DNA of 23,874 nucleotides. It comes from a virus. The stretch lies in IMG/VR virus record IMGVR_UViG_3300042894_003217, positions 1 to 23,874 of that record; one strand, written 5' to 3'. The notes beneath the pieces were generated by a model. That model did no database searches. It was not told where the DNA came from and was given only the letters and a program-made list of their open reading frames with translations. Positions 17,739-23,212 of this stretch are shown piece after piece. Each line of letters begins with the position of its first letter. The stretch's first letter is position 1. The position numbers and the translations under genes are program-made.

Positions 17739-18194
17739 ATGCCTAGCGTCGAGCGCGACTTCTACTACGACATGCTCGGCGCTCCGCACGCCGAAGGCGG
17801 GAGAAGTCTGCGGCACGGCATCGACTGCTTGGGCGTGGCGTGGCTTGTGCTGAAGAGGATCCACGGCGAGAAGTGTCTGGACGCCGTCGAGGACTGGGAG
17901 TCGGGCCAGACTACGGCCGACAGCGCGGCGCTCCAGACGTGGAGAATGCAGTACGACGACCGATGGCGTCTTTTGTCGCGCGGATACATCTGCAAGACGA
18001 AGACGCAAGTCGGCGACATCGTCCTCCAGATGATGGGTCCCGAGCGCAACATGCCGCACGTCTCGATCGTCGTGCATTGCGGCAATGCCGAGCCGCTGAT
18101 CCTTCTGACCTCGGATCGGAAGCGTGGCGTGCGCGCGGTCGCCGAACGCATGATCGGACCAATCCACAGCGTCTATCGCCTCATCCTGAAATGA
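17739..18194 (+). CDS. NlpC/P60-type tail assembly peptidase (lambda gpK C-terminal half)
   Basis: A protein of 151 residues from ATG 17739. GTG 17733 is an equally plausible start, since GAAGG at 17721-17725 is seven bases from the GTG and thirteen from the ATG. It has the NlpC/P60 pattern: HGIDCLGVAWLVLKR with nucleophile C30, a GDIVLQMMG strand, then MPHVSIVV with H107 as the likely catalytic histidine. Lambda gpK joins an MPN/JAMM domain to an NlpC domain. Only the NlpC half is present here, a common short form. The enzyme probably cuts peptidoglycan or a tail protein during assembly or entry. It sits between L and J genes, and its stop overlaps the J start (ATGA). The frame is open upstream to 17586, which overlaps the L gene and is unlikely. 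Confidence 0.88.
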   Translation: MPSVERDFYYDMLGAPHAEGGRSLRHGIDCLGVAWLVLKRIHGEKCLDAVEDWESGQTTADSAALQTWRMQYDDRWRLLSRGYICKTKTQVGDIVLQMMGPERNMPHVSIVVHCGNAEPLILLTSDRKRGVRAVAERMIGPIHSVYRLILK

Positions 18195-21100
18195 TCGAAG
18201 TCCTCCTGATCCAGAACGTCTTCGCGGGCGCACGCGGCGCGGAGCTGTTGCGCGTCGATCGTCGGCAAGCCCTGGTGGTGGACTTGCTGCCGCCGGGCTG
18301 GATCGACCACAAGGAGAACATCATCCCGGTGCGCGGAGTGAAGCGTCTTGCTTGGGACGACGAGATCCTCGCCGGCGACCGCATCGGATTCCTGCTCGCT
18401 CCGCGCGGCATCGAGTTCACGCTTGCCGGATTCGTCAAGTACCTCGCGATCATGTTCGCCGCGAACGTGATCATGCGCGCGCTGCTACCGAAGCCTCCGA
18501 AGCCGCGCAAGGACGACAGCTCGGCGACGTACGGCTACTCGGGCATCGAGCCTTCGCGCGTCGAGGGCGAGCCGATCCCGCTCTACTACGGCAAGATGCG
18601 CGTGGGCGGTCAGGTCATCAACGAGTTCATCGACGACTTCGGCAGCGGCGGCGCGCAGTATTCGGTGCTGCTTTCTCTGGGCGAAGGGGCGCTCGAAGAG
18701 ATCGCCGGCCAGACTTCCGACACCGCCGTCCCGATCACGAGCAATTCCAGTTCAAGCGTGCTTCCGGCCGGCAAGTTGTACGTCAACGACAGCGACGCCT
18801 CGAGCCTGCAAGGCGTGACTGTGCAGGTAAGGATGGGCACGCTCGAGCAGTCCTCCATCGAGGGCTTCGAGTTCGCCTCGAGCGTCGTGGCGATCGACAC
18901 GGAACTGGTCGGTCCGGGCGACTCGATCTTCGATCAAGTCCTGAACTACAGCTCGCCGCAGTTCCTCGTCAACGGCACGACCTCGAGCAACGCGACGTGG
19001 ACGGAATTCGGCATCACTTACACGATGACGGTCGAGGGCGAAGAGGCCGTCATCAAGGTGCTGTACCCGGAGGGCTTGACGCTCTCGACGGGCGGGAACT
19101 TGGTCGCGACGAACAGCGGCATCGCGGTCCGCTACATCGAGCTCAACGCACTGGGCGTGCCGATCACGACCGGCGGTCCCGAGGGCGACGGCTATGTGCG
19201 CCTGCGCCCGACGCGTTTCGTTTCAAAACTGAATCCCGGGTCGACGGTCGACACGCGCGTGCCGCTTTACGATCCGCAGACCTTCACTCGACCGGCGCTT
19301 GCACCGTCGCTCCTGTTCGACTTCACCAGCACGCCAACCACTGCTCCCAGCGCGGCCTTCCTCAGCAGGACTGGAACTCTGACCGTGCCGGCCAATGGTC
19401 CGCTATGGACGAGCTCTGGAGCCGCGGAGTCGTTCACGGTCGAGATGTTCTGCTATGTGCAGACGAAGAGCGTAGTATTTACTGGAGTTAGTACCTTTGT
19501 CTACCGAGTCGTGCGCAGCACCACGGTGCCGGCAGGAGCGTGGTTCAAGCTCGGCCAGATTCGCGTCGGCGCTCTTCGGCCCACGTTCACGCTCGCTCCC
19601 GGGCAGAGCGTTCAACGCACAGTGCCGTACGTCCAACTGAACAGCACAACCTCCAGCCAGTTCTACGAGGGCAAGGGCGAGACGTTCTTCACTCCGAGCT
19701 TTGTGTTTGCAAACACGATCGCAGACCAGAATGCCGACGACGATGAATCGTTCACGCCGGCCGCGGCTTACGCGCCTGGCGGCTGGAAGCACATCGTCGC
19801 GACGTTCGAGACGAGCGCCGTCGGGACGTTGAACCGCGTGCGTCTGTACGCCAACGGCGTCAAGCTCGTCGACACGACGACATCGCAGACCGTCACGCTG
19901 CCCAACTTCTCGTCGATCGGCGCTGGCAACTTCGAGATCCGTGGGCCCGGCACCGATGGAATGATGCAGAACGTCGTCATCTACAAGGGCGTCATGGACG
20001 AGGACACGATCCGTCGCCAATACAACAACGGCAACGGGCGCACGAACTTCATCTCAGACTTGGTGCCGGTTTTCTACATGTCGGGCGCAAGCACGACGGT
20101 CGACGGATCCGGCAACGGAAACACGATGACGGTCAACGGGCCGAACCTTGTCTCCGATTCGACCTACAGCATCATCGAGGGCACGACACCTCCTACTCAA
20201 CGGGTCAAGAAATCCAAGTACAAGATCGAGGTCCTGCGCTCGATCGAGAACTCCTCGAGCGTGAACGCAGCGGACACGATGCGCTGGCAGTCGCTTTCGC
20301 TGCGCGAGTACGACCCGTTCACTTATCCGACAGCTCCCCTGGTCGGCGTGAACGTACGCGCCTCGAGCGAGATCAGCGGCAACACGCCGAACGTGACGGT
20401 CGTGGTGAAGGGCCGAAAGGTGCCGGTGTGGGACAAGATCTCGACCGACTTCCCGACGTTCACGGTCGAGTTCTCGCGCTGCCCTGCGTGGATCGTCGTC
20501 GACATGTTGCTCGACAAGAACTGGGGACTCGGCAATACGTTCGACAACACCGACCTCGACATCGCCACGTTCCAAGAGTGGGCCGACTACTGCGACGGAC
20601 TGGTCTACAACCAGTCCGGCTACACGGCTACCTACAGCGCGACGACCAGCGGTTCGGCGATGACGTGGAGCGACGTACTGCACACGACGGACAGCAGCGG
20701 CCGCGTGTTCGAGTTCTATGTGCCGAAGGACTCGATCCCGAGCACGGTCAAGATCGGCGACTACATCTGGGTCACGGGCACGCCTTCCTTGCCGTCTGGC
20801 GTCGCGTTCAATTCGGACAACGCAGGTGTCGCCGGCAACTACGAGATCGTCGACATCCAGCGTCCGGCCGTTGCTCCGCACAAGATCATCGTGCGCAACC
20901 CGTCGCTCTCGAACACGCCGTGGGCCGTGGGCTCGCTTATGTCCTCGGTCGTGACTCCGGCCGGCACCATCCAGACTCGGCATCCTCGATTCCAGTACGA
21001 CGGCGCGATCGACCAGCAGGGTTCGGCGTGGGATGCACTGCTCCAAGTGTGCGCCAGCGGCCGCGCGACGATCATCCGTGACGGACGCAAGGTGCGCATC

Positions 21101-23212
21101 GCGGTGTTCAAGCCGAAGAGCGTGTCCGAGATCGTCGGCATGGCGCAGATCGAGGCGGGCAGCTTCGAGGTCGAGTACCTCAACCCCAAGACGCGCTTCA
21201 ACCAGATCGAGATCGGCTTCTTGGACGAGGCGCTGTTCTACGAGCGGTCCATGGTCTCCGTAGAGCATCCGACCATCGCCGGCACGACTGACTCCGGCTT
21301 GATTCGCCGGCGGAACTTCTTCCAAGAAGGCGTGATCCGACGCGCTCAAGTTCTACGGCAGGCGCGCTACCTGCTAAACCAAGAGAACGAGGTGCGGAGG
21401 AAGGGACGCTTCGTGGGCTCGATCGACCTCGTCGGCCTCCAGCCGCTGGACGTGATTCGCATCGCGCACGACGTACTCGACCGCGGCGTCTCTGGTCGCG
21501 TGAAGCAGGACTCGAGCCTGAGCACGCAGGTGTACCTTGATCGCACGGTCGTGCTCGCGGCCGCGACGACGTACAAGCTGACCGTGCGAAGCGCGAACGC
21601 AGGCGTCTCCAACCCGCCGACGTTGACCGTCACCTCGGCGGCCGGAACCTATGCCATCGGCTCGCCGATCACGGTGTCGACGGGCTACGGCATCGCGCCT
21701 CTGAAGGACGACGTGTGGATCCTCCACACCGACGGCGAAGACCTGCTGGCGCAGGTCGACTCCATCACGTTGACGCCGGAGCTCCAGCGCGAGATCCAAT
21801 GGTCGGAGTACGTCGAAAGCGTGTACGACGTCGAGGACGTCGGCGACACGCCTGACATCGACGTGGAGTTCCTGACCGCCGAGACTCCGGCCGCTGGTCG
21901 TCAGTCGATCCCGCCGATCGTCGACAACGTGCGCGCGAAGGAAGTCGTGGCGCGTGGGCCGGGCGGATCGCATCAGCCAAGACTCCTGGTGTCGTGGGAG
22001 TACGGCGACAACTCCTCGGACACGCTGGCCGGCTTCGACGTGTACGTCGCGCCCGACATCGGCCTCCTCGAGCCGTTCTTCGAACTCAAGGCCACGGCGC
22101 TTCCCAGCGACCGTTCAGCCGTCGTCACGCTCGAGAACGCCAGCGTCGGCGATTCCTTCCTCGTGGCCGTCGTGTCGCGGAGCCAAGGCGGGCAAGCACG
22201 CCTGCCGTCGCGCAGCGGGCAGTCGTCCGTGCGCATGATCGGCCGGTCGCCGGCACCGACTGCGCCGGACTGGGACTCGTCGTTCCCATACTCCTTGGAC
22301 GGCGAGCTGGCGACGTACCGCGTCGAGCCCGGATCTGTCGACGAGTCCACCACGCTCGAGATTCGGCGCGGCGGCTGGCTGCTTGGACAGCGTGTCGGCG
22401 CGATGCCGCAGGACTCCGGCAAGTTCGGGCCGACGGCGAATTGGACCAGCGCGGTGGCGACGAGCGTCTCGGCTCGCGAGCACCTGCACGGCATCGGTCA
22501 GGCTGGTCAGTTGTTCGTGCGCGCGGTCAGCGAGCGCAACAAGTGGTCGACCGCGGACGTCGTGGCGTGGAATCCCGCTCCTGTGGACAGCGAGGCCATC
22601 GTCGACTCGGGCAACAGCACTTACTTCACTCGATCTTGGGAGGACTACGGGATCGGATGGCGCAGGTCGGGCGCGGTCACGCCGAACGCCACGCTGACGA
22701 ACTGCCAAGTGACGACCTCGATCATGTTCCCGCAGGGCTACCTCGAGTTCAGCGGCTCGAACTTGACGGCGACGTACACGACGTCCGATCCCTTGGTGCT
22801 CGTGGACCAGCGCGCCGAATGGTTCTACAACTCGGCATTCTTCGTCGGCGAGCAGATCTGGCCGACGACGTGGGACGACAGCGCGCACGTCTGGGACAAC
22901 GGCGAGGCGCAGTGGTCGTGGGAAGGGCCGTTGAACAAGCTCGCCGCGGCCGACGACCTCGGGCGCGTGGAGGTGAAGATCGAGTTTCGCACGCTGGACG
23001 AGGACGACACCTACTCGGACTTTCAGGCATACACGCCGGGCAAGGTTCGCTGCCAGCACGTCCAATGGAGGCTCACCATGACTCGTCCGAGCACGGCCTT
23101 CCAAGTCCGCATCTATCGGTTCTCGACGCAGTTGTTGCGCATCCCGCGGCAACGCTTCGAGCGCAGCGGTCTACAGTTCTTCGTCGAGCACCAGATCTTT
23201 GGGAGGACGTGA
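18191..23212 (+). CDS. tail tip attachment protein J-like, with I-like N-terminus and LamG-like insertion
   Basis: A 1673-residue central tail tip protein. Residues 1-110 look like a short gpI-like unit with a hydrophobic stretch (FVKYLAIMFAANVIMRALLP, about 80-99). J proper starts at YGYSGIEPSRVEGEPIPLYYG (about 113). A beta domain of 250 residues is inserted near 370-620 and has LamG traits: GWKHIVATF, VRLYANGVKL, NVVIYKGVMDED. The J hub resumes at TQRVKKSKYKIEVL and SSEISGNTPNVTVVVKGRKV (about 722-740), RCPAWIVVDMLLDKNWGLG and EWADYC. A second small beta insertion (about 808-930) precedes RFQYDGAIDQQGSAWDALL. Fibronectin type III-like units lie near 1240-1350 and 1355-1465, then a beta-rich end with RIYRFSTQLLRIPRQRFE. 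J-type proteins form the trimeric hub and recognise the host receptor. The start is set by the ATGA overlap; the frame open back to 17840 is within the K gene. Confidence 0.92.
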   Translation: MIEVLLIQNVFAGARGAELLRVDRRQALVVDLLPPGWIDHKENIIPVRGVKRLAWDDEILAGDRIGFLLAPRGIEFTLAGFVKYLAIMFAANVIMRALLPKPPKPRKDDSSATYGYSGIEPSRVEGEPIPLYYGKMRVGGQVINEFIDDFGSGGAQYSVLLSLGEGALEEIAGQTSDTAVPITSNSSSSVLPAGKLYVNDSDASSLQGVTVQVRMGTLEQSSIEGFEFASSVVAIDTELVGPGDSIFDQVLNYSSPQFLVNGTTSSNATWTEFGITYTMTVEGEEAVIKVLYPEGLTLSTGGNLVATNSGIAVRYIELNALGVPITTGGPEGDGYVRLRPTRFVSKLNPGSTVDTRVPLYDPQTFTRPALAPSLLFDFTSTPTTAPSAAFLSRTGTLTVPANGPLWTSSGAAESFTVEMFCYVQTKSVVFTGVSTFVYRVVRSTTVPAGAWFKLGQIRVGALRPTFTLAPGQSVQRTVPYVQLNSTTSSQFYEGKGETFFTPSFVFANTIADQNADDDESFTPAAAYAPGGWKHIVATFETSAVGTLNRVRLYANGVKLVDTTTSQTVTLPNFSSIGAGNFEIRGPGTDGMMQNVVIYKGVMDEDTIRRQYNNGNGRTNFISDLVPVFYMSGASTTVDGSGNGNTMTVNGPNLVSDSTYSIIEGTTPPTQRVKKSKYKIEVLRSIENSSSVNAADTMRWQSLSLREYDPFTYPTAPLVGVNVRASSEISGNTPNVTVVVKGRKVPVWDKISTDFPTFTVEFSRCPAWIVVDMLLDKNWGLGNTFDNTDLDIATFQEWADYCDGLVYNQSGYTATYSATTSGSAMTWSDVLHTTDSSGRVFEFYVPKDSIPSTVKIGDYIWVTGTPSLPSGVAFNSDNAGVAGNYEIVDIQRPAVAPHKIIVRNPSLSNTPWAVGSLMSSVVTPAGTIQTRHPRFQYDGAIDQQGSAWDALLQVCASGRATIIRDGRKVRIAVFKPKSVSEIVGMAQIEAGSFEVEYLNPKTRFNQIEIGFLDEALFYERSMVSVEHPTIAGTTDSGLIRRRNFFQEGVIRRAQVLRQARYLLNQENEVRRKGRFVGSIDLVGLQPLDVIRIAHDVLDRGVSGRVKQDSSLSTQVYLDRTVVLAAATTYKLTVRSANAGVSNPPTLTVTSAAGTYAIGSPITVSTGYGIAPLKDDVWILHTDGEDLLAQVDSITLTPELQREIQWSEYVESVYDVEDVGDTPDIDVEFLTAETPAAGRQSIPPIVDNVRAKEVVARGPGGSHQPRLLVSWEYGDNSSDTLAGFDVYVAPDIGLLEPFFELKATALPSDRSAVVTLENASVGDSFLVAVVSRSQGGQARLPSRSGQSSVRMIGRSPAPTAPDWDSSFPYSLDGELATYRVEPGSVDESTTLEIRRGGWLLGQRVGAMPQDSGKFGPTANWTSAVATSVSAREHLHGIGQAGQLFVRAVSERNKWSTADVVAWNPAPVDSEAIVDSGNSTYFTRSWEDYGIGWRRSGAVTPNATLTNCQVTTSIMFPQGYLEFSGSNLTATYTTSDPLVLVDQRAEWFYNSAFFVGEQIWPTTWDDSAHVWDNGEAQWSWEGPLNKLAAADDLGRVEVKIEFRTLDEDDTYSDFQAYTPGKVRCQHVQWRLTMTRPSTAFQVRIYRFSTQLLRIPRQRFERSGLQFFVEHQIFGRT

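Follow-up and report, generated by a model that had tools for sequence, protein, structure and literature searches.

A LamG-like domain inserted into FNIII-A of the tail-tip hub protein J of a virus, and its apparent exchange between related phages

The tail-tip hub (host specificity) protein J encoded in a viral DNA stretch of 23,874 nucleotides (IMG/VR record IMGVR_UViG_3300042894_003217, positions 1 to 23,874; hereafter the window, meaning the whole stretch) carries a LamG/concanavalin A-like domain, inserted in the loop that joins the E and F strands of FNIII-A (HDII-ins2). Computation yielded the domain itself and its location, its occurrence throughout the subfamily and its rank as the least conserved region of J, and also the exchange of a segment centred on it, which sequence comparison places between otherwise close phages in at least two lineages. 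The role favoured here, with confidence only slightly on the positive side, is that of an accessory host-surface-binding module in the E-F loop of FNIII-A, present in three copies on the J trimer and directed at a variable surface ligand.

An initial sequence-only reading had proposed that a LamG-like lectin domain at positions 19292-20040 (J 368-617) interrupts J, and the interruption proved to be real: in alignment, the span between the landmarks flanking it is 447 residues in the window and 88-112 in insert-free J proteins. The landmarks were surveyed in 151 loci (cited by L numbers), giving 148 J frames with both landmarks, repeated contigs included, while L058 and L066 showed only the second. 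The span measured 88-112 residues in 108 of the 148 frames; 17 frames had 162-291 and 23 had 413-482, and these 23 amount to 13 distinct records (the window, L002, L003, L004, L022, L023, L024, L025, L028, L029, L067, L068 and L070); most of the 108 insert-free frames came from the best 80 matches of one lambda-type scan, so that the ratio cannot be taken as a natural frequency.

The interrupted domain was compared with a profile built from 38 insert-free FNIII-A sequences. When the flanks of the insert were joined, the score of the window rose slightly (24.2 bits against 22.5 for the whole stretch; E 6.5e-8) and those of L068 (42.0 against 34.4) and L169 (29.7 against 20.7) rose clearly, with values of 25.3 against 20.1 for L025 and 18.4 against 14.8 for L161; 20 shuffles reached at most 1.3 bits, all with E >= 0.75. 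In the window this profile matches only the 3' half of FNIII-A, and the 5' half is assigned by alignment and by strands predicted by AlphaFold2 (AF2; model residues 2-9, 13-17, 24-35, 58-62 and 68-75). PF24801 (FNIII-A_GpJ) also falls on the 3' side in the window, at 14 bits and below its 27-bit cut-off, its best E among seven members being 9.2e-5. According to passages of the lambda tail papers (PMC10721106, PMC11101478), FNIII-A (residues 72-215) or HDII-ins2, which we take to be the same domain, touches the gpI plug and shifts position when the hub opens. The insertion boundaries rest on pairwise and 13-row alignments together with the AF2 model; a first MAFFT alignment, in which insert-free J proteins were smeared across LamG, was not used for them. 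The 3' boundary first proposed was too short: the insertion reaches about J 670 (20200), and the modelled jelly roll ends near J 664.

The motifs which had suggested a LamG domain are all present in frame, namely GWKHIVATF at J 531-539 (19781-19807), LYANGVKL at J 552-559 (19844-19867) and NVVIYKGVMDED at J 594-605 (19970-20005). Membership of the LamG family is upheld by PF13385 (Laminin_G_3), whose match exceeds chance and its curated cut-off of 27.6 bits (35 bits and E 2e-8 for whole J, 37 bits and E 4.8e-9 for the segment alone, 35-38 bits across the window searches). Among ten related records, eight match PF13385 at E up to 1 and three exceed the cut-off (L002, L004 and L068); L022-L025 and L029 stay below it, and L067 and L070 show no match. 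L161 scores 17 bits and neither L162 nor L169 matches at E 0.1, the assignment of these three resting on alignment to the window domain and being weakest for L169. Searched against the PDB, the domain sequence gave a best E of 0.33 and its profile nothing at E 0.1, and the LamG region had no match at E 0.01 among phage records. Searches with whole J brought up 30 phage and 15 plasmid records, all matched through hub parts only and none over 80% of the query, and none of ten fetched phage or plasmid J records has a LamG-sized span. A profile scan of genome contigs yielded one bacterial protein, L033, from a metagenome-assembled Bacteroidetes genome; an earlier scan gave nothing and a later one added only contigs already known. 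L033, which resembles a pectate lyase by eye, served as the LamG control in hhalign and reached 93%, against below 0.5% for the inserts of L064, L041, L059 and L070; the L068 insert reached 26% (E 7e-4), yet scores 34 bits by Pfam.

The jelly-roll fold that the sequence-only reading had suggested agrees with the AF2 prediction, in which J 371-664 forms, with moderate confidence, a two-sheet jelly roll of the concanavalin/pentraxin type. The model was built from a 13-row alignment (mean pLDDT 63.2, pTM 0.67; 80-91 in the best LamG blocks), one from seven rows with a mean pLDDT of 34 not being used for the fold. FNIII-A strands extend to model residue 75 (J 358) and are followed by the jelly roll at residues 88-381 and by further strands at 393-402 and 415-421. 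Re-examination of Foldseek matches with VIA-align 2 gave PAPP-A (Z 15.8, 195 aligned, 3.6 A), PTX3 (Z 15.2, 178 aligned, 2.7 A), a putative Bacteroides carbohydrate-binding protein (4dqa, Z 14.1), CBM40 (Z 11.2) and neurexin LNS domains (Z 11.2-10.8), a list which does not exclude folds absent from it. The structural neighbours thus include pentraxins and CBM40 with sialyllactose. Pentraxins, LNS domains and CBM40 share the predicted concanavalin-like fold with the window domain (Z 10.7-15.8) but differ from it in sequence, identity not exceeding 17% among the 50 rows listed, and the likeness is one of fold that need not extend to function. Against viral models, several proteins named LamG or concanavalin stand among the best 50 Foldseek matches, many rows being nameless.

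The domain is present in 13/13 of the close J relatives found, whose identity over aligned J is at least about 49% (L002, L003, L004, L022, L023, L024, L025, L028, L029, L067, L161, L162 and L163), and L068 and L169 (28% identity) also carry it. Six of the 13 (L022-L025, L028 and L029) had initially been picked up by a query with the LamG region itself, which favours such an outcome; a scan with the J C-terminus only, a query free of LamG bias though built from LamG-bearing J proteins, recovered the insert in 11/11 loci (L159-L169, including records of L002, L003, L023, L028, L029, L067 and L068). The junctions are common to the LamG-J relatives in the 13-row alignment, and the more distant J proteins L005-L008 are without the domain. 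A domain private to this phage is thereby ruled out. Nor can it account for a host-range shift peculiar to this phage, since all 13 close J relatives possess it. Presence in all close relatives as part of the core fold would have told against an insertion; the domain does occur in all those found, but it is not core, being an addition to FNIII-A which 108/148 J frames lack at that place.

Conservation across J was compared as mean identity over eight representatives (15-28 pairs per region). LamG is the least conserved part, at 46.0% with 38 gaps on average, followed by a second insertion further downstream (51.1%), whereas other regions stand at 57-69% and the C-terminus at 78.3%. Within LamG, entropy is 1.30 in loops against 0.98 in strands and helices. 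The loop at J 427-446 reaches 2.2 bits with 19 gaps over 11 rows, and J 427-447 holds a 7-codon length difference between L004 and the window; J 507-526 shows 1.6-1.9 bits, with 36 gaps in the bin J 527-536 and low pLDDT at model residues 225-247.

Pairwise comparisons locate this variability in a discrete segment. Over about 7.5 kb, L024 and L029 share 93-99% nucleotide identity in most 150-base bins, but a valley stretches between J +450 and roughly +2200 nt, with identity of 75-82% over HDII-ins and FNIII-A and a low of 57% in LamG. L022 and L025 (about 4 kb) are 93-100% identical up to J +1050, 81-55% from +1050 to +1650, 86-89% from +1650 to +2100 and 90-99% thereafter. The synonymous divergence (dS) agrees: between L024 and L029 it is 1.84 in LamG against 0.06 in the plug and the second insertion (HDII-ins 0.60, FNIII-A 0.66-0.75, HDII 0.26), and between L022 and L025 it is 0.98 in LamG against 0.05-0.32 elsewhere. 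Of 11 pairs with plug dS < 0.2, three show a LamG excess (L022/L025, L023/L025 and L024/L029), corresponding to at least two exchange events; L028 was left out of the counts, its J protein being equal to that of L029. Strong positive selection on LamG was considered and rejected on its dN/dS of 0.17-0.28 in group-2 pairs. We read this pattern as pointing to long-diverged LamG alleles exchanged by recombination rather than to accelerated point mutation.

That LamG is least conserved and lies at the centre of the exchanged segments suggests a host-contact role, and contact with the host cell surface is suggested because the domain is swapped in some relatives while most of the rest is nearly unchanged. 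In favour of it also stand the PF13385 match, the carbohydrate-binding proteins among the structural neighbours, the greater variability of LamG loops, a J C-terminus in which no variable receptor-binding tip is seen, and the published precedent of an evolved Dit with a carbohydrate-binding insert (PMC10688798). Three copies on the J trimer, a stoichiometry taken over from lambda, would anchor the tail tip to some variable ligand on the cell surface, be it a polysaccharide or a protein (a pilus, for instance), either ahead of hub opening or during it; that the domain faces outward, binds a ligand and bears on host range is inferred. Several observations weigh against such a role. The model has moderate confidence (pLDDT 63) and drops below 50 in several variable loops, and sugar binding does not follow from a concanavalin fold. 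The dN/dS values above give no sign of positive selection, and in L022/L023 the LamG dS (0.11) is below that of HDII-ins (0.33), so that LamG is closer than its flanks, a pattern that would also fit movement of the segment. Furthermore, eight of the 11 close pairs lack a LamG dS excess (six of these compare the window and its three closest contigs with one another), the L024/L029 segment is wider than LamG (about J 150-730, taking in HDII-ins and FNIII-A), and dips occur elsewhere: smaller upstream ones of 74% (at -3750) and 85% in L024/L029, and 57-77% at -4950 to -4500, outside J, in L023/L025. These last observations would also fit ordinary neutral mosaicism, under which the allele exchange would be uninformative on function; this is nevertheless very improbable, the deepest and widest valley of L024/L029 being centred on LamG and the sole valley below 80% in L022/L025 (with less overlapping sequence) lying there too.

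The presence of the domain in all 13 close relatives under purifying selection, in a domain that in lambda touches the gpI plug (according to a passage of PMC10721106), could alternatively mean that LamG is a structural decoration of the hub, serving as a stabiliser or docking site for another tail protein and having no host ligand. This is unlikely, as a structural part is not expected to be the least conserved one nor the centre of exchanged segments. Somewhat less unlikely than a decoration is a LamG that binds a protein surface structure such as a type IV pilus and not a glycan. The type IV pilus is the receptor of AXL3 and DLP3, phages with a LamG tail protein (PMC7504290, PMC7326821), for which reason a protein ligand may be regarded, by analogy, as a serious alternative to a glycan; the PilC pilins 7oa8 and 7oa7 are also among the Foldseek neighbours, which says only that the fold is shared. 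However, the passages on AXL3 and DLP do not show LamG as the pilus-binding part, and the LamG-like segment of AXL3 is C-terminal by eye and not in FNIII-A.

An extension of the favoured host-binding role concerns the J C-terminus, which is the most conserved part of the protein; no variable receptor-binding tip was seen there, and J seems, by alignment, to be without one. It is conceivable but unlikely that the LamG cassette took over host recognition from the C-terminal tip, with retargeting by exchange of LamG alleles. Ligand binding could then contribute directly to triggering tail opening, given that the lectin is seated on HDII-ins2, a domain that shifts as the lambda hub opens.

Features of the J gene in the window (all on the given strand; aa, amino acids)
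Feature	Position	Strand	Remarks
J (tail-tip hub/host specificity) gene	18191..23212	+	1673 aa; ATG start; stop included; coding to 23209
N-terminal part, J 1-110	18191..18520	+	hydrophobic stretch resembling lambda gpI plug
FNIII-A (HDII-ins2), first part, J 284-361	19040..19273	+	strands up to E; alignment with insert-free J proteins
Inserted LamG/concanavalin A-like domain, J 362-670	19274..20200	+	PF13385, AF2 model, VIA-align
Modelled jelly roll, about J 371-664	19301-20182	+	AF2 model residues 88-381
PF13385-matched part of LamG, J 515-607	19733..20011	+	35 bits against cut-off of 27.6
Most variable LamG loop, J 427-447	19469..19531	+	entropy, gaps; indels even against a 96%-identical relative
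Second variable LamG loop, J 507-530	19709..19780	+	entropy, gaps, low pLDDT
FNIII-A, second part, J 671-717	20201..20341	+	strands F and G; insert-free FNIII-A profile
Second insertion relative to L005-L008, J 807-928	20609..20974	+	after FQEWADYCD
Phage-tail_3 hub domain, J 941-1104	21011..21502	+	PF13550, 32 bits
C-terminal region, J 1481-1673	22631..23209	+	most conserved J part, 78% mean identity

The assignment of J itself rests on several profiles (see the table for coordinates). PHROGs phrog_31 ('central tail fiber J') matches at E 1.5e-75, PF13550 exceeds its cut-off of 23 and thereby places J among lambda-type hubs by family profile, and the J structures 9e7m and 8iyk are matched by the J profile (E 1.5e-12 and 5.2e-12), while the TipJ-related NF040662 gives 68 bits, under its own 140-bit cut-off. 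With phrog_32 ('tail assembly protein', gpI-like) matching J 94-145 at E 7.3e-6, J appears from its sequence to be an I-J fusion carrying a gpI-like plug at the N-terminus; J 1-110 may act as a plug by analogy with T5 pb3 and lambda gpI, as these are described in a passage of PMC10721106. The N-termini of L005-L008 resemble this plug-bearing start by alignment. The second insertion is present across the LamG-J group and absent from L005-L008 in the alignment, and no family was found for it, Pfam included. The record holds a capsid gene and tail genes, and the virus is probably a siphovirus. Among the proteins scanned downstream of J, none matched a family with a known phage function. A protein of some 395-422 aa lies 3' of J in L159 (7056-8240), L163 (7678-8943) and L167 (8043-9242), possibly a virion or receptor protein, with no Pfam match and, in the two scanned, no PHROG match.

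Other J proteins also carry extra sequence in FNIII-A, whose loop looks like an insertion hotspot. Longer spans (180-291) were seen in L017, L041, L064, L059, L062, L055, L050, L054, L039, L056, L060, L061 and L052, with no LamG match in those scanned; L017, an Aeromonas plasmid J, holds a different insert at the same place. L070 (3966-4997) has a 344-aa insert there with LamG-like motifs by eye; as it gave no significant match to LamG, it was not counted as such. In L019 (Pseudomonas phage PARCL1pr, MZ496292), a J frame of 1917 aa runs from about 3615 onwards on the + strand, opposite annotated hypothetical proteins, and this region is likely misannotated.

Parts of this arrangement are known from other phages, here as given in passages of the cited papers. 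Lambda gpJ (PF24801; PMC10721106, PMC11101478) belongs to the same hub family and has the same host domain for the insertion, but the lambda-type J frames compared lack the insert (span 88-112) and lambda J has a separate receptor-binding C-terminus, whereas the window J has the plug fused to it and no variable C-terminus was seen. Carbohydrate-binding inserts in Dit and Tal are known for phages of Gram-positive hosts, and an evolved Dit with such an insert improves adsorption to exopolysaccharide-bearing cells (PMC10688798, with PMC7291167 for the inserts). The window J resembles evolved Tal and Dit (PMC7291167, PMC10688798) in that a beta domain of lectin type interrupts a core tail-tip protein (hub span 447 against 88-112). 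These examples come mostly from phages of Gram-positive hosts, their carbohydrate-binding modules often being of the BppA type; here, in contrast, a LamG/pentraxin-like domain lies in FNIII-A of an I-J fusion hub and carbohydrate binding is putative. A LamG domain with a host-range role proposed from sequence variability has been described in the AXL3 central tail hub gp21 and in DLP3/DLP5 gp28 (PMC7504290, PMC7326821); a Pfam scan of the AXL3 protein at E 0.1 gave only Phage-tail_3, and gp28, unlike the hub-inserted domain, stands as a protein of its own (about 340 aa). Mention has also been made of LamG3 in the virions of jumbo phages (PMC7824862) and of shuffling of tail-protein domains (PMC10684548). 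LamG tail proteins with a proposed host-range role and sugar-binding hub inserts are therefore already in print, while the insertion site, the lineage-wide presence and the allele exchange appear to be new; no description of LamG in FNIII-A of J was found among the listed matches from open-licence PubMed Central, and one may exist elsewhere.

The FNIII-A loop is thus marked as a recurrent insertion site in J proteins. A putative host-binding module is placed in the hub itself, within the domain which, in lambda, contacts the plug and is displaced when the hub opens, and J 362-670, together with the natural allele pairs, provides defined material for asking whether hub-borne lectins set phage host range.
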